Assembly (NCBI RefSeq): GCF_013283665.1
Contig: NZ_JABEKU010000001.1
Span: 2,170,001 to 2,234,000 of the forward strand
Source: Ensifer sesbaniae
Lineage (GTDB): Bacteria; Pseudomonadota; Alphaproteobacteria; Rhizobiales; Rhizobiaceae
DNA: 64,000 nucleotides
Direction: 5' to 3'
Shown here: positions 3,363-59,016 of the stretch, in pieces
Numbering within the stretch: the first letter of the stretch is position 1
How the letters are laid out: every line of letters starts with the position of its first letter
Program-made: the position numbers and the translations under genes
Notes under the pieces: generated by a model
Seen by the model: the letters and a program-made list of their open reading frames with translations, nothing else
What the model was told of the DNA's origin: nothing
The model's database searches: none

Positions 3363-3629
3363 GAGCGGGCCTGTCGGTCTCTTCTGAGCGATTGCATCTG
3401 GCTTTCGCAGTGTTCTTTAGCGCAATCCGCGGGAAAATACCCACAGGCAATCGCCGCTAGACGAAAAAATCCGAAAAATTCTGTCTTTCCCGGTTCTTAT
3501 CCAGGGCAGTTGCAGCGCCGTCACGCGGCGGAAAGCTGTTCCCAACTCCCGTTAAGAAACCATTCATCCCCTGTTCAAAATGACGAGCGTATGACAGTTA
3601 CACGACACATTTGTGAATTGGAGAATATA

Positions 3630-5561
3630 TTGGCTAGTATCGATTCCGCTGTCGCGAGAGGCTCGCGCGTCTATGTCGATAGACCCGGCTTCACCGCGCG
3701 GCACGCCAAGACGCTCGCGGGCACCCGCAGCGCATTGTTCTCCCTTTTCGTCGCAGCTGCTCTCGTGTTCGTCGTCGAACTGGTCGTGCGTCAGTCGATG
3801 ACCGATACGGTCGCCTATTTCCTCGACCCCATGCGTCCGGCATTGACCACGGTCGGCGCCTTCTTCCTCATCCTGCTCGCCATCGACGGCATTTTCGGCC
3901 GCGAGCACAAGTCGGCCGTGGTGATGGCGCCGCTTGCCGTCATACCGGCCGTCATCTGCCAGCAGAAGCAGGTCTTCCTGTCCGACCCGCTCTATCCGAC
4001 AGATTTCCTGTTCGGCCGCCAGATCATGGAATTGATGCCTGTTCTGGTGAAGGATCGGCCCTGGACCGCCGTCGGCATCGCCGTCGGCCTCGTCGCTGGG
4101 GTCATCGCGATCGCCCTCCTGCTGCGTTTTGCCTGGCGGAACTTCCCCAAGCTGACGACGCGCGAGCGCGTGGCTCGGCTCGCCTTTGCGCTGCCGCTGC
4201 TCGTCGCCTTCTGGAATATCATGGATTACAACCAGTTCTCCTGGATCCGTGACCGCCTGAAGGTCCTCCCCATCATGTGGGACCAGACCGAGAACTATAA
4301 GCACAACGGCTTCGCACTCGCCTTCGCCATCAATCTGCCGATGGCCAATGTCAGCGCGCCCGCCGGCTACATGGCCGATGCCATCGATCGCATTCCGGTG
4401 AAGCCGCTTCCGGCCGGCACCTCGCACCGCGGCAAGCCCGACGTCATCGTGCTGATGAGCGAGTCCTTCTGGGATCCGACCCGCCTGCCGAACGTCAAGC
4501 TCTCGCCCGATCCGATGCCGACGATCCGCGAGATGCAGTCGGGCAACGTCTTCTCGCCGGAATTCGGCGGCATGACCGCCAATGTCGAGTTCGAGGCGCT
4601 GACCGGCTTCTCCAACGCCTTCCTGCCCTATGGCAGCATTCCGTACCAGCAGTACATCCGCAACCCGATCCCGTCGCTTGCCACCTTCTTCCGTGGCGAA
4701 GGCTACGTCTCGCGCGCCATCCATCCCTTCCAGAGCTGGTTCTGGAACCGCACCGCCGTCTACAAGGCCTTCGGCTTCGACACGTTCAGGTCGGAGGAGA
4801 ACATGCCGCCGATGCAGAAGCGCGGCATCTTCGCCTCGGACGAGTCACTGACCAACGAGATCATCCGCCAGGCCGATGCGATGGACGACCCGTTCTTCTT
4901 TTTCGCCGTCACGCTCCAGGGCCATGGTCCCTATGAGGCGAACCGCTACGCGAAGAACACCATCAAGATCGAAGGCAACCTGCCGGAAGGCGACCGCCAG
5001 GTGCTCGCCACCTATTCGCAAGGGATCAAGGAAGCCGACGACAGCCTGAAGAAGCTGATGGACTGGGCGAAGAAGCGCGATCGCGAAACGATCATCGTGC
5101 TCTTCGGCGACCACCTGCCGCCGCTGAACACCGTCTATACCAATACCGGCTTCATGAAGGGCGTCACCGCGGAGCGGAAGGGTTCGAAGGACCAGATGAA
5201 GGCGCAGCATGAAACGCCGCTGGTCGTCTGGTCGAACAAGACAGGCCCGAAGAAGAACGTCGGCACGATCAGCCCGGCCCTCCTCTCCTACACGATCCTC
5301 AAGCAATCCGGCTACGAGCACCCCTACTACACCGGGTTCCTCGGCAAGGTTCACGACCAGTTCCGCGTCGTCGACCGCTACATGCTGATCCGCAAGAACG
5401 GCAAGGAAGTCGCCGAGTGGTCGCGCCAGCCGAAGGTGCCCGCTTTGCTGCGCGACTATCGCTTCCTGCAGCACGACATGATGTTCGGTAAACGTTTCTC
5501 GACCGACCGGTTCTTCAAGTCTCACGCCGAGCTCTTCGCAAGCGCGGCTGAAACCCACTGA
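3630..5561 (+). CDS. LTA synthase/OpgB-family membrane phosphoglycerol (sulfatase-fold) transferase
   Basis: The product is an inner-membrane protein with about five N-terminal membrane spans followed by a periplasmic alkaline-phosphatase/sulfatase-fold domain. The metal and nucleophile regions are visible as VLMSESFWD, FGGMTANVEFEALTG (likely nucleophile threonine) and FGDHLPPL. This family transfers phosphoglycerol to glycans. In Sinorhizobium the related CgmB decorates periplasmic cyclic beta-glucans, so this could be cgmB or a paralogue, but I cannot decide that here. I chose the TTG at 3630 (643 residues) because GGAG lies seven bases upstream. An in-frame ATG at 3591 adds 13 residues but has no good ribosome site. 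A strong hairpin follows the stop. Confidence 0.82.
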   Translation: MASIDSAVARGSRVYVDRPGFTARHAKTLAGTRSALFSLFVAAALVFVVELVVRQSMTDTVAYFLDPMRPALTTVGAFFLILLAIDGIFGREHKSAVVMAPLAVIPAVICQQKQVFLSDPLYPTDFLFGRQIMELMPVLVKDRPWTAVGIAVGLVAGVIAIALLLRFAWRNFPKLTTRERVARLAFALPLLVAFWNIMDYNQFSWIRDRLKVLPIMWDQTENYKHNGFALAFAINLPMANVSAPAGYMADAIDRIPVKPLPAGTSHRGKPDVIVLMSESFWDPTRLPNVKLSPDPMPTIREMQSGNVFSPEFGGMTANVEFEALTGFSNAFLPYGSIPYQQYIRNPIPSLATFFRGEGYVSRAIHPFQSWFWNRTAVYKAFGFDTFRSEENMPPMQKRGIFASDESLTNEIIRQADAMDDPFFFFAVTLQGHGPYEANRYAKNTIKIEGNLPEGDRQVLATYSQGIKEADDSLKKLMDWAKKRDRETIIVLFGDHLPPLNTVYTNTGFMKGVTAERKGSKDQMKAQHETPLVVWSNKTGPKKNVGTISPALLSYTILKQSGYEHPYYTGFLGKVHDQFRVVDRYMLIRKNGKEVAEWSRQPKVPALLRDYRFLQHDMMFGKRFSTDRFFKSHAELFASAAETH

Positions 5562-23545: not shown

Positions 23546-23631
23546 GCCGTCCTCCAATACCGAAAGATCTCGCCAAAGCGACCCTTCGACCGATAGCATG
23601 ACAGTCTGATGACGGCAGCAACGAAAAAGTG

Positions 23632-55307: not shown

Positions 55308-55711
55308 CCAAGCAATCCCATGACGAAGACCGTGACGATCGCCGCGGCCATGAAAGTGGCAACCGCAGCTATCGAGCGTCGCGACAGCCTTGCAAGGCCG
55401 ACGACGCCGTGGCCGCTGGTGCAGCCGGAGCCCATGCGGGAGCCGAAGCCGACCAACAGCCCGCCGGCCACCAGAAGCGGCCAGGAGGACGTGACCGTCA
55501 CCCCGGGCCAGGCGCCGAAGACGAGACGAAATAGCAGCGGTCCTGCCATCAGCCCCAGTACGAACAATGCGCCGGTGGAAGCCTGCACGCCCTGCAGCAG
55601 GCGTCCGGCGATACCGCTGATCCCGGCCACACGGCCAGTGGCCACCATCAGGATCGCTGCGGAAAGGCCGATCAACAGCCCACCCGCCAGCGCATTCCCG
55701 TACTCATTCAT
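55304..55711 (-). CDS. YeeE/YedE-type membrane protein (first half)
   Basis: The 135-residue protein has four spans, an early [19 protein letters not shown] stretch and the key [22 protein letters not shown] motif with the conserved cysteine. With the following gene it makes a two-part transporter equivalent to one full YeeE. The start overlaps the BigR-like repressor stop by four bases. Confidence 0.9.
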
Positions 55712-56040
55712 GTCCTAGAACCATCCCGACAGAAGATCTGATAGAGCGCGCCGACCAGACGCGCCACCTTGTCGTGGCTCAGCCGATAGAACACCTGCTT
55801 GGCCTGCCGACGCGTCGAGACAATGCCGGCATCGCGCAGCACCGTCAATTGCTGCGAGAGGGTTGGCTGGCGAATGCTCAGGCTTTCTTCGAGCGCCGCC
55901 ACCGAGTGCTCGCCCTCCAGCAAGGCGCTCACGATCAACAGTCGATTTCGGTTGGCGAGGGTTCTCAAGATTTTCGAAACTTCGGCGGCATGCGCAGCCA
56001 TGTCGGTGCGCACCCCCGGAAATTGCATAACAGTTCCCAT
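55708..56040 (-). CDS. ArsR/SmtB-family repressor, BigR/SqrR-like
   Basis: BigR-type repressors sense sulfide-derived persulfides and control sulfur detoxification genes. The 110-residue protein has the ArsR core with VAALEESLSIRQPTLSQQLTVLRDAGIV as the DNA-binding helices and a wing RRQAKQVFYRLS. Known BigR/SqrR proteins use two cysteines. Here only the C-terminal one is present (QIFCRDG), while the N-terminal position in the second helix reads LLIVSALLEG without cysteine. The ATG at 56040 has AGGAGGAAGCA upstream. It heads an operon with the two YeeE genes; no sulfur dioxygenase gene is attached. Confidence 0.9.
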   Translation of the reverse strand: MGTVMQFPGVRTDMAAHAAEVSKILRTLANRNRLLIVSALLEGEHSVAALEESLSIRQPTLSQQLTVLRDAGIVSTRRQAKQVFYRLSHDKVARLVGALYQIFCRDGSRT

Positions 56041-56134
56041 TGCTTCCTCCTGTCGTTGCCCTAGGAGTGAGTGGAGCCCCAATGCTTGCTGTGGTTTGCC
56101 GGACCACTATCCATGATTGTTATATCAAACAGTA

Positions 56135-56147
56135 TAATATCGTATTA
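56135..56147. promoter_or_regulatory. AT-rich dyad upstream of the BigR-like operon
   Basis: TAATA (56135-56139) and TATTA (56143-56147) form a short inverted repeat inside a strongly AT-rich tract about 100 bases before the repressor start. ArsR-type BigR operators are AT-rich dyads, so this is a candidate autoregulatory site. The match is short. Confidence 0.35.
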
Positions 56148-56499
56148 CTTATTGATTAACCAGACGAAACAAAAGCACGTTACTGCCGCCAGTACCGGAT
56201 ACCTGTCCGTTGACTTTAAAATCATATAGAAAATTCAGATCGTTACAACGCGATCACGGCAGAGGGGAAAACGCCATATTTGGGGCAACCGTCCGGACGA
56301 TATCGGGCAACCATAAAACTTGTGGTATAGTGACCTCAAACAGGAACATGCGATAACGCCCCGGGGTCGACGGCCCGCACACCGGATACTGGTGTTTCGA
56401 CGCCGGCTCGCCGCCGGCGCGAACGCAGGCTTCGACCGTTATCCGGCGAAATATCTGCAAATGAATCGTCGCCAATCCCGTTCCCCTGTCACGAAACGG

Positions 56500-56631
56500 T
56501 GATGCTCTTCGAGCAATTTGCTCGCGCGGCGCGATATCGCCCTTTGATTTGCGCTCGTGATTTGCACGCCGGAGCCTCCCTCGTTTGCTCCGGCCGTTGG
56601 GCCGGCCTCCCCGCCGGCCTCTTTTTTTTTT
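56500..56631 (+). ncRNA. Candidate trans-acting small RNA with C/U-rich loops (5' end unknown)
   Basis: The gap between the bigR operon and the extensin-like gene, both leftward, holds three hairpins in plus orientation. The first has CGAGC (56510-56514) and GCTCG (56520-56524). The second has GCCGGAGC (56568-56575) and GCTCCGGC (56587-56594) with loop CTCCCTCGTTT. The third has GGCCGGC (56600-56606) and GCCGGCC (56613-56619) with loop CTCCCC, followed by a run of T (56620-56631, one C). No plus-strand protein gene precedes this terminator. Loops CUCCCU and CUCCCC could pair with Shine-Dalgarno sequences, as in several alphaproteobacterial small RNAs. The 5' end is a guess. Confidence 0.55.
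56600..56631 (+). terminator. Strong plus-strand intrinsic terminator with no upstream protein gene
   Basis: A seven-base all-GC stem (56600-56606 with 56613-56619) is followed by TCTTTTTTTTTT. This is among the best terminators in the window. Since the flanking genes both run leftward, it implies a rightward non-coding transcript. Confidence 0.88.
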
Positions 56632-56649
56632 GCCGCTTGGCGCCCGACG

Positions 56650-57906
56650 TCAGTCGCAGTGACGATAACCGGTCTTGCGGGTCCTGAGATCGAAGTGGAA
56701 ATGGTCCTTGTGGAAGGGATCGCTGCCCGGACCGAGCACGGTGTTGAAATACTTGCAGCTATCAGAGCGCACGGCCTTCAGGAGCCCGCGTTCGCGGAAG
56801 GCGAAGAAGCCTTTCTTTCGGACATCGATTTCCTTGCCGTTCTTCAAGACGAACTTGCCGACGTCGATGGCGTTGCCGCGTGCGTGTTCGGACATCGGGT
56901 TGCCGCGGCGCGAATTCATCGTGCGGCAGGAATAGCCGCCGAGCGGCTTGATGGTCTTGACGCCCGACCAATAGCGATAGCGGGACGATGGCGCGAGTTC
57001 GTACTTCACCCACTTGGCGAAGGCTTCCGTCACCTCGCAATTGAGCTTGACCGCCGGCTTGACGCCGATATTGCCGGAGAGACCGCTGAGTTCGATCGGA
57101 TAATCGATACCGCAGGACGGACCGTTGCTGATGCGCGGAATGTCACGGAAAACGACGCCGAGCTTCTTCAGGCGCTGGCGGCAGGCGATCTCCGAAGCCG
57201 GCATTTCGCCGGTATAGTCCGGCGTCGACATCGGATTGCGTACACGCGGCAGGAAGGCGACCTGCTGCGGCTCCTGGGCCCGCTGCATGGCGCGCTGCTC
57301 TTCCATCGCCCTTGCGCGTTGCGCCTCTTCCGCGGCGATCTTCTCGGGTGAGAGCGGCGGCAGGTCTGGATCGTAGCCGAGGTTGGCTTCGGCCTGGGGC
57401 GCGGCTCCGGACGCTCCGCCGAGCTGGCGTACGTTGTCTTCGCCGATACCGCCGACCACCGGCTGGCTGGCATTACCCTCGGCGATCTCGTTGCTCTGCT
57501 CCTCCGCCAGGCCGACGACCGGCTGCTCGACGCCGAGCATGGCATCCATGTTGACACCTTCATCGGGAATGGCCGTCGATCCCGCATTCGCCGGCTGGGC
57601 GCCGGAGGAAACCGCTTCGTCGCTATCGATCATCGGCAGCGTGCGCTGCGCTTGCTGAGGCGCCGCCCGTGCGGGCGCGACATAGCCGGGATTGCCGCTG
57701 CCTGTCGAAGCCGATGTTGCGGCGGGATAGGCGGCGACCTCTTCTTGCGGCACCGCATCGACCGGGACCGGGCCGATCGAACCGACCCGGGAGCCGCCAT
57801 CGATGCGGCCGGGCGGCGAAAGCGCGTCGTCGGTCGAGCAGGCGACGAGCGATAGCGACAGAACGAGTGCCGTCAGCGGGCGATGGAGACGAGTAACATA
57901 CGCCAT
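56650..57906 (-). CDS. Extensin-like C-terminal domain lipoprotein
   Basis: The 418-residue protein has a lipoprotein signal (LVLSLSLVACSTDD, lipobox LVAC) and a long low-complexity linker rich in Ala, Pro, Gln and Glu (about 30-235). The C-terminal extensin-like domain resembles M15 peptidases. Visible sites are CRQRLKKLGVVFRDIP, SCGIDYPIELSGLSG, MSEHARGNAIDVGKF and KDHFHFD, in line with zinc binding (SxHxxGxAxD and HxH). A peptidoglycan-modifying role is plausible. I chose the ATG at 57906, which gives a proper lipoprotein signal; an earlier TTG at 57936 is possible. Confidence 0.88.
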   Translation of the reverse strand: MAYVTRLHRPLTALVLSLSLVACSTDDALSPPGRIDGGSRVGSIGPVPVDAVPQEEVAAYPAATSASTGSGNPGYVAPARAAPQQAQRTLPMIDSDEAVSSGAQPANAGSTAIPDEGVNMDAMLGVEQPVVGLAEEQSNEIAEGNASQPVVGGIGEDNVRQLGGASGAAPQAEANLGYDPDLPPLSPEKIAAEEAQRARAMEEQRAMQRAQEPQQVAFLPRVRNPMSTPDYTGEMPASEIACRQRLKKLGVVFRDIPRISNGPSCGIDYPIELSGLSGNIGVKPAVKLNCEVTEAFAKWVKYELAPSSRYRYWSGVKTIKPLGGYSCRTMNSRRGNPMSEHARGNAIDVGKFVLKNGKEIDVRKKGFFAFRERGLLKAVRSDSCKYFNTVLGPGSDPFHKDHFHFDLRTRKTGYRHCD

Positions 57907-57984
57907 ACCGAACTGCGCCTTCCCTAGGGCGATCAAGAAAGACCGCCATCATCACCCCGCCGCCCCGCAGCGGCGCGCCAACCG

Positions 57985-58227: not shown

Positions 58228-58779
58228 TCAGCGGCACTCGCCGCGATGCACGACCCGGAAACCCGCACCGCCGGCCTCGCAGGCATTCGGGAAGGTTTCC
58301 ATGCGACCGCCGCGCTGGCCGCAGACCGGGGCGAATTCGCGGGTGCAGAACTGCCCTTCCGACGGGCGGTCGTCGCCGCGACGGCATTCGCCGCGGCCGA
58401 TCACCTGGAAGCCCTCCGAACGGGCTTGGCAGGCATTGGGGAAGGTGCGCGTGTTGCGGCCGCGCTGGCCGCAGACCGGCATGTACTCCATGGTGCAGGC
58501 CTGCGGCGGCCGCGCCGGCGGACGATTGCCGGGGCGGCACTCGCCGCGATGGACGACATTGAAGCCATCGGCGCGGGCCTGGCAGGCGTTCGGGAAGCTG
58601 CGCAGGCGATTGCCGCGCTCACCGCAAACCGGCGCATACTCCATCGTGCAAACCGGCGGACGGATCGGCCGGGGACCCGGGCGCGGCTCGTCGACGACGA
58701 CGGTACAGGCGGAGAGAAACCCGAGCGCCAGCATCAGCGCGGCGACCGGGCGCGTCAGAAGAAGTTTGAGAAGTGCCAT
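58228..58779 (-). CDS. Lipoprotein with three Kazal-type protease inhibitor domains
   Basis: The 183-residue protein has a lipoprotein signal (ALMLALGFLSACTVVV). Three Kazal-like repeats of about 50 residues follow, each with the pattern CTMEYAPVCGERG...SFPNACQARADGF...HRGEC. The repeats share six-cysteine-type spacing reduced to four visible cysteines per unit (C..VCG..AC..EC), the compact Kazal form seen in bacteria. Linkers are proline- and arginine-rich. Predicted role: surface inhibitor of serine proteases, from host or predator. The ATG at 58779 follows AGAGGGGAC. Confidence 0.9.
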   Translation of the reverse strand: MALLKLLLTRPVAALMLALGFLSACTVVVDEPRPGPRPIRPPVCTMEYAPVCGERGNRLRSFPNACQARADGFNVVHRGECRPGNRPPARPPQACTMEYMPVCGQRGRNTRTFPNACQARSEGFQVIGRGECRRGDDRPSEGQFCTREFAPVCGQRGGRMETFPNACEAGGAGFRVVHRGECR

Positions 58780-59016
58780 GGATGTCCCCTCTAAAGAAGC
58801 GGTCGGCAACCGGAGCGACGCCCCGTCAAACACCTCGCGCATTTCGCGTATCTATCCGCGGCTATCATCAGGTCAAGGCCGAGCATCCTGCTTTGCACGT
58901 CAATCGGACGCATGCTGGGTGCACTGGCACCGCTTTGTTCCAGAGGGCCGCTCGCGCGGACGCTCGCTCAAGACCGAGTACGATGGAGGGAGGAACCCGG
59001 TGCCCTTGCCATAAGA

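Follow-up and report, generated by a model that had tools for sequence, protein, structure and literature searches.

Among the described small RNAs of rhizobia, alpha-r14 (NfeR1 / Smr14C2) comes close in design to the RNA predicted here. In the available portions of the sources it is a rhizobial trans-acting RNA of comparable size with three hairpins and a terminator, and it likewise has C-rich loops and a promoter of its own with a conserved motif (PMC10746234, PMC3927594). According to similarly partial sources, alpha-r8 (MmgR, SisA-D) is small, ends at a terminator and has a C/U-rich segment (PMC12559287, PMC7143759), AbcR1/2 (alpha-r15, partly SuhB-like) combines three stem-loops with CU-rich unpaired parts (PMC7143759), and PmaR of Agrobacterium pairs through a C-rich sequence that is not an anti-Shine-Dalgarno sequence (PMC6234868).

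The phosphate response of S. meliloti offers the closest described promoters. Excerpts of the sources report that orfA-pit has a Pho box just upstream of its translation start and is repressed upon phosphate starvation (PMC3131613), and that 16 of the 33 S. meliloti PhoB boxes with mapped starts lie 22-25 nt before the start (PMC3616915). Five small RNA candidates with predicted PhoB sites (sm3', sm14, sm25, sm30 and smA5), as well as four transcripts raised by phosphate starvation without an evident PhoB site, are given for S. meliloti in the accessible part of PMC2573895.

The locus described below lies in a window of 64,000 nucleotides (the whole stretch of DNA that was analysed) and looks, from its sequence, like the gene of a regulatory small RNA some 105 bases long on the Ensifer chromosome, conserved in related soil bacteria.

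Predicted small RNA gene downstream of an extensin-like gene

The elements of the locus are as follows.

55708-56082, minus strand: ArsR-type gene (PF01022)
Between the ArsR-type gene and the extensin-like gene, both leftward: intergenic region of 567 bp
56486..56503, plus strand: Pho-box-like 18-mer CTGTCACGAAACGGTGAT, conserved upstream of the RNA as CTGTCAYNAAACSGTGAY
56514..56519, plus strand: predicted -10-like element CAATTT, 10 bp downstream of the box
56526..56631, plus strand: predicted small RNA, ~105 nt, with a predicted start (+/- a few bases) and its end at the T run
56526..56558, plus strand: stem-loop 1, variable in sequence, based on the fold and on helix 1 covariation
56556..56567, plus strand: linker CGTGATTTGCAC, near-invariant and mostly unpaired, the proposed pairing seed
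56568..56594, plus strand: stem-loop 2 with C-rich loop CTCCCTCGTTT, based on helix 2 covariation
56599..56631, plus strand: stem-loop 3, the intrinsic terminator, with loop CTCCCC and ten T
56650-57936, minus strand: extensin-like gene (PF06904)

The sequence confirmed the perfect eight-base stem and the strong rightward terminator that the earlier note had described between two leftward genes. In stem-loop 2, GCCGGAGC (56568-56575) pairs with GCTCCGGC (56587-56594) around the loop at 56576-56586. The terminator stem (56599-56606 with 56613-56620) consists of seven G-C pairs and one G-T, encloses CTCCCC (56607-56612) and is followed by a C and then by ten T (56622-56631). Hairpin and terminator both exceeded chance: the fold of 56557-56631 had a z of -3.81, equalled by 0 of 200 shuffles, and a strict scan for terminators (perfect stem of at least 7 bp with at least six T) on both strands of the whole window had the terminator of the predicted RNA as its sole match. 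The predicted RNA in full (56526-56631) had a fold z of -3.48, equalled by 0 of 200 dinucleotide shuffles. A simpler terminator scan, covering 2 kb, gave three sites against 1.9 expected and is uninformative alone; a simple scan of 2 kb of the plus strand found no sigma-70-like promoter.

With the end of the conserved promoter at 56519, the transcript is predicted to be ~103-106 nt long, and the 130-170 nt originally proposed are probably an overestimate. Its start was set from the -10 element and the box-to-start distance of 22-25 nt found in the accessible part of PMC3616915; as the box ends at 56503, such a distance would put the start at 56526-56529, consistent with the predicted one.

Two further features of the locus were observed. 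The E. adhaerens-type RNAs carry TGATTTGC in two copies (window 56545-56552 and 56558-56565), the upstream copy belonging to stem-loop 1 and the downstream copy to the linker. The extensin-like gene is adjoined by a gene for a Kazal-type protease-inhibitor domain protein (PF07648, PF00050; window 58228-58842, minus strand).

Occurrence of the RNA in relatives

Of 16 genomes of the genus, its own included, 15 contained the region according to a DNA search; the nearest named loci are those of Ensifer sp. Root278 and E. adhaerens. An extensin protein query led to 80 named loci; after 11 from distant alphaproteobacteria (L085-L088, L090-L096) had been set aside, the remaining 69 were examined downstream of extensin. 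A covariance model, R1, was built from seven Sinorhizobium-group sequences and run on 75 sources; it begins after the box, so the promoter is excluded from it. R1 recovered 30 Ensifer/Sinorhizobium sequences at E <=3e-8 (seven being the model's own) and 14 Pararhizobium/Rhizobium-type sequences at E 2e-7 to 3e-3, all antisense to extensin. Although absent from the model, the box was present upstream of all 14 (15 to 18 of 18 bases). A second model, R2, made from these 14 sequences, gave strong matches in three of 16 further genomes (G313, G315 and G317; E 1e-26 to 2e-30), and their coordinates suggest that they share a contig with extensin, a few kb away from it. Homologues antisense to and 3' of the same extensin-like gene were found in Ensifer, Sinorhizobium and Pararhizobium-type genomes.

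Matches of R1 in Mycoplana and Shinella loci (E 4e-4 to 0.15; mainly to the terminator) were excluded from the RNA counts, including four such loci within the E range of the 14 Pararhizobium-type sequences. Fourteen family genomes had R1 matches, and six of them (L109-L114) were excluded on inspection as resembling unrelated terminators.

A strict pattern of box plus linker occurred in 17 of 394 family genomes and in three of 109 genera, with a single copy in each genome, and its reversed control in none. With a slightly looser linker the pattern was found at 36 of the 69 extensin loci, always antisense and never in the opposite direction. Two loci, L017 with a divergent box and L026 with an insertion, fail the strict pattern yet carry the RNA, and in five others (L065-L068, L075) the form is divergent, with GTGGTTTGCAC and just the first half-site of the box preserved. 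The insertion in L026 (Ensifer sp. MPMI2T; 3832-4033, minus strand) measures ~100 bp, contains repeat-like hairpins and lies between box and RNA body.

In the window 18 bp separate the end of the T run from the stop codon of extensin, which would suit a cis element alone, either a terminator or a short antisense transcript protecting the convergent extensin gene. This explanation is very unlikely: the terminator stem has no T run after it on the leftward strand, and across the 36 pattern loci the distance from box to extensin stop ranges from 143 to 2382 bp, yet linker, stems and box are kept.

Five genomes keep the extensin gene and do not have the RNA (S. meliloti 4H41, S. medicae, S. saheli, S. 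kostiense and Ensifer sp. USDA 6670). At E <=1, four of the five gave no match to R1 and two gave none to R2; the remainder had E >=0.11, and the eight weak model matches inspected in RNA-less genomes contained neither box nor linker. S. kostiense (L041) has a box with one change and a decayed RNA body. Hairpins that are not conserved in relatives with the same flanking genes had been named in advance as evidence against an RNA gene, and these five species or strains, which keep extensin, bear this out in part. Losses from genomes that keep extensin count against an essential role. As S. meliloti is without the RNA by both models, small RNA catalogues built on S. meliloti would omit it.

Compensatory changes and the conserved linker

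When 42 sequences were aligned to R1, an alignment that leans to the model and whose structure was hand-written for one group and then tested on others, 97.7% of cells were paired and two-sided changes were found in 14 of 18 pairs. These are the compensatory base changes in related genomes that the earlier note had proposed to look for. None of 500 shuffles matched the real alignment on any one of the five measures used, and shifting the structure by 1 to 3 columns left at most 52.5% of cells paired. Two-sided changes occurred in all five pairs of helix 1 (91.9% of cells paired) and in all six pairs of helix 2 (100%). At the 14 Pararhizobium-type loci stem-loop 2 is formed by a wholly different stem, GAACC/GGTTC, and the closing pair of the terminator alternates between C-G and T-A among relatives.

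The region contains short open frames (e.g. 56499-56687), as a short mRNA for a small protein would. Such an mRNA is nevertheless extremely improbable, given that the body lengths of close relatives differ by non-multiples of three and that conservation tracks the stems and the linker.

The linker is the best-kept part of the RNA. Among 27 Ensifer/Sinorhizobium sequences the mean column identity was 98.8% for the linker CGUGAUUUGCAC, 63% for the loop of stem-loop 2 and 57% for the 5' part, and TGATTTGCA was exact in 45 of 47 RNAs. Forty-five of the 47 RNAs were folded from their predicted start, L046 and L143 being left out since they are truncated at a T run, and the unpaired probability of AUUUGCA was 0.73 on average and 0.36 at its lowest.

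The loops bear on a different account, in which the RNA mainly masks ribosome-binding sites by anti-Shine-Dalgarno loops, as is thought for alpha-r14 (NfeR1) or alpha-r8 (MmgR). The two C-rich loops of the window fit such masking, as does CCCC in the loop of stem-loop 2 or 3 of 41 of the 45 RNAs, but CTCC is present in 19 and CCTCC in only seven, the alpha-r14 and alpha-r8 motifs are present in none, and the 63% identity of the loop contrasts with the 98.8% of the linker. The C-rich terminator loop was retained in one of 15 Pararhizobium-group RNAs. Masking as the main function is accordingly rated unlikely, and the weight that had been placed on anti-Shine-Dalgarno loops is shifted to the linker. 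The C-rich loop could pair with G-rich ribosome sites, though this is not the best-kept feature under selection. A search for anti-Shine-Dalgarno loops alone can mislead where, as here, the linker is the best-kept part.

Apart from its length and the anti-Shine-Dalgarno emphasis, the proposal of a plus-strand small RNA gene held, with conservation and compensatory changes in extensin-keeping relatives and with no Rfam family. The locus has the marks of an intergenic trans-acting small RNA: a promoter of its own, as judged by conservation and position only, an intrinsic terminator, no co-directional neighbour gene, no conserved open frame, and a conserved structure with compensatory changes.

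Pho-box-like promoter

The earlier note had not mentioned a Pho-box-like promoter. The box of the window agrees with 11 of the 14 positions of the CTGTCAT-N4-CTGTCAT consensus, a score of at least 11 being reached at five places in the window, and the form found in many relatives, CTGTCATGAAACGGTGAT, agrees with 12. The second half-site reads SGTGAY, against the canonical TGTCAY. In most homologues CTGTCAYNAAACSGTGAY lies 10 bp ahead of CANNTT, and in the same genome the phoC (phnC-like) promoter reads CTGACATTTCGCTTTCAT-N10-TATGGC, with a spacing from box to -10 equal to that of the RNA gene. With at most one mismatch, the box had two further matches in its own genome, one at orfA-pit and one between genes that we take to be acyl-CoA-dehydrogenase-like and CorA-like; the canonical form had one match, ahead of a secreted-protein gene.

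The degenerate 18-mer YTGTCAYNAAACNGTSAY occurred exactly 27 times in 18 genomes, at 16 RNA genes and at 11 other places, and the reversed pattern did not occur; the 16 matches at RNA genes are expected because 16 of the 18 genomes were chosen for carrying the RNA. Eight of the 11 other matches lay at the start of orfA-pit (the other three, L257, L263 and L268, being unassigned), so the box is common to known Pho genes. At those eight sites the orfA start codon, located by tblastn, lies 25-43 nt after the first box base. The motif there is on the strand opposite to orfA, which was counted against the PhoB reading, as were the three unassigned places, the five divergent loci with half a box, and the window's non-canonical half-site and modest score.

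The same small RNA gene could be under another regulator, its likeness to a Pho box being incidental. This would accommodate the non-canonical second half-site SGTGAY of the homologues and the commonness of a score of 11/14, but would account poorly for the eight matches at orfA-pit and the phoC-like spacing from box to -10, and we regard it as rather improbable. Control of the RNA gene by PhoB is likely on these comparisons.

Two other places in the window have Pho-box-like sites. At 3580-3608 on the minus strand, two overlapping 18-mers, 11 bp apart and each with 12/14 positions, overlap the start (3592) of a plus-strand gene whose product we take to resemble a membrane sulfatase or LTA-synthase-type protein. 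At 23598-23615 on the minus strand, a site with 13/14 positions lies upstream of the probable start of a minus-strand gene, presumably for a protein resembling the pyridoxamine-phosphate-oxidase type.

Same box ahead of a different, possibly transcribed stretch

The same box was found 3' of extensin and in the same direction at five Mycoplana/R. subbaraonis-type loci (L071, L073, L077, L078, L083) and at three Shinella loci (L069, L070, L072). Behind it, on the minus strand, these Mycoplana-type and Shinella loci have a different stretch with C-rich segments and a terminator 238-258 bp after the box; a fourth Shinella locus, L074, has neither box nor C-rich stretch. The three-hairpin RNA with the UGAUUUGCA linker, ~90-120 nt long, is behind the box in Ensifer, Sinorhizobium and Pararhizobium-type loci. 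The Mycoplana-type and Shinella loci possibly encode a second RNA under the same promoter. It is conceivable, as a tentative extension, that the rhizobial Pho regulon has a base-pairing RNA arm in which the promoter is older than the RNA and the transcript has been replaced. If true, RNA bodies would have been replaced rapidly behind a phosphate-starvation promoter that stayed the same, and the S. meliloti line would have lost the RNA.

Search for targets

The exact complement of the linker, TGCAAATCA, occurred 28, 16 and 33 times in three genomes, and once the three RNA genes were removed 74 places remained, covered by 73 stretches. Two complement sites had counterparts in each of the three genomes, one preceding ctaA and the other next to a LysE-like gene (we presume ctaA to encode heme A synthase, and the LysE-like identity is likewise our own reading of the protein); a transposase-like gene had a corresponding site in two of the three. 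The site at the LysE-like gene is on the wrong strand. The ctaA site was kept in 13 of 15 genomes examined, including three of the five RNA-less ones (G308 S. meliloti, G310 and G311), the ctaA element of G309 and G312 being without a strict-pattern match. As evidence for a target, ctaA thus failed this control, and it was rejected because its site persists in genomes without the RNA. The linker-complement search of three genomes yielded no supported target.

The ctaA site sits inside a separate conserved element. This element is ~70 bp long, has the dyad TTTTGCA...TGCAAA, precedes ctaA by ~70-80 bp, in S. meliloti as well, and is located around 545-625 (oriented) in L176, L203 and L224; it had no Rfam match.

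Proposed mechanism

The gene, its promoter and its fold are conserved, with compensatory changes, and its box is common to orfA-pit. Taken together, the evidence makes it probable that the locus encodes a PhoB-activated trans-acting small RNA of ~105 nt, undescribed in the sources searched. The course of events that we infer is the following. At low phosphate, phosphorylated PhoB would bind the box at 56486-56503, which would replace a -35 element, and transcription would begin near 56526. The RNA would fold into three stem-loops, the last of which, as its terminator, would leave it with a long U tail. Long U tails are of the kind usually held by Hfq, and the ten-T tail suggests that Hfq would hold and protect the RNA there. 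The near-invariant linker UGAUUUGCAC would most likely be the part that pairs with target mRNAs, possibly joined by a second contact at the C-rich loop of stem-loop 2, and this pairing would presumably repress the targets. By these means the RNA may help the bacteria to adapt to scarce phosphate. If it is PhoB-driven, Ensifer, the S. fredii group and Pararhizobium would have a post-transcriptional arm in their phosphate response.

Comparison with known RNAs and promoters

Neither the window nor any of 20 homologous loci matched an Rfam family at the gathering score, so the search proposed in the earlier note placed the RNA in no family. With E up to 10, the region 56100-56700 gave SorY, a viral pseudoknot and a snoRNA, all far under their gathering scores; the best of the region, SorY of Rhodobacter (RF02651), matched mainly the terminator and scored 15.4 bits, where the gathering score is 111, with an E of 1.7, which is chance level. 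In the available text of open-licence papers, which comes without supplements and is weak evidence, no description of the Ensifer RNA was recognised, and the word "extensin" is absent from the available portions of PMC4414408, PMC6234868, PMC3927594, PMC2245857 and PMC5596092.

The RNA differs from each of the systems named at the outset. As its partial sources describe it, alpha-r14 is defined by CCUCCUCCC in each of its three hairpin loops, a sequence present in 0 of the 45 RNAs here, and is multi-copy with a promoter bound by LsrB/NtrC, whereas the Ensifer RNA is single-copy and has a Pho-box-like promoter and a conserved linker. The mark of alpha-r8, in the same kind of source, is the unpaired 10-mer UUUCCUCCCU after a weak hairpin, again found in 0 of the 45. 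With AbcR1/2 the region shares no AbcR/SuhB match in Rfam at the gathering score or at E 10. PmaR is reported, in the accessible part of its source, to be confined to species of Agrobacterium and a single Rhizobium strain (PMC6234868).

The likeness to the S. meliloti Pho promoters (phoC, orfA-pit) is closer. To judge from the available parts of the sources, half-sites spaced by 11 bp, a phoC-like spacing to the -10 element and a near-identical motif at orfA-pit are shared (PMC3131613, PMC3616915); the promoter here is unlike them in its second half-site, SGTGAY, and in driving an RNA gene. On this comparison of sequences and descriptions, the predicted RNA is taken to represent a lineage-restricted family of trans-acting small RNAs, probably in the Pho regulon.
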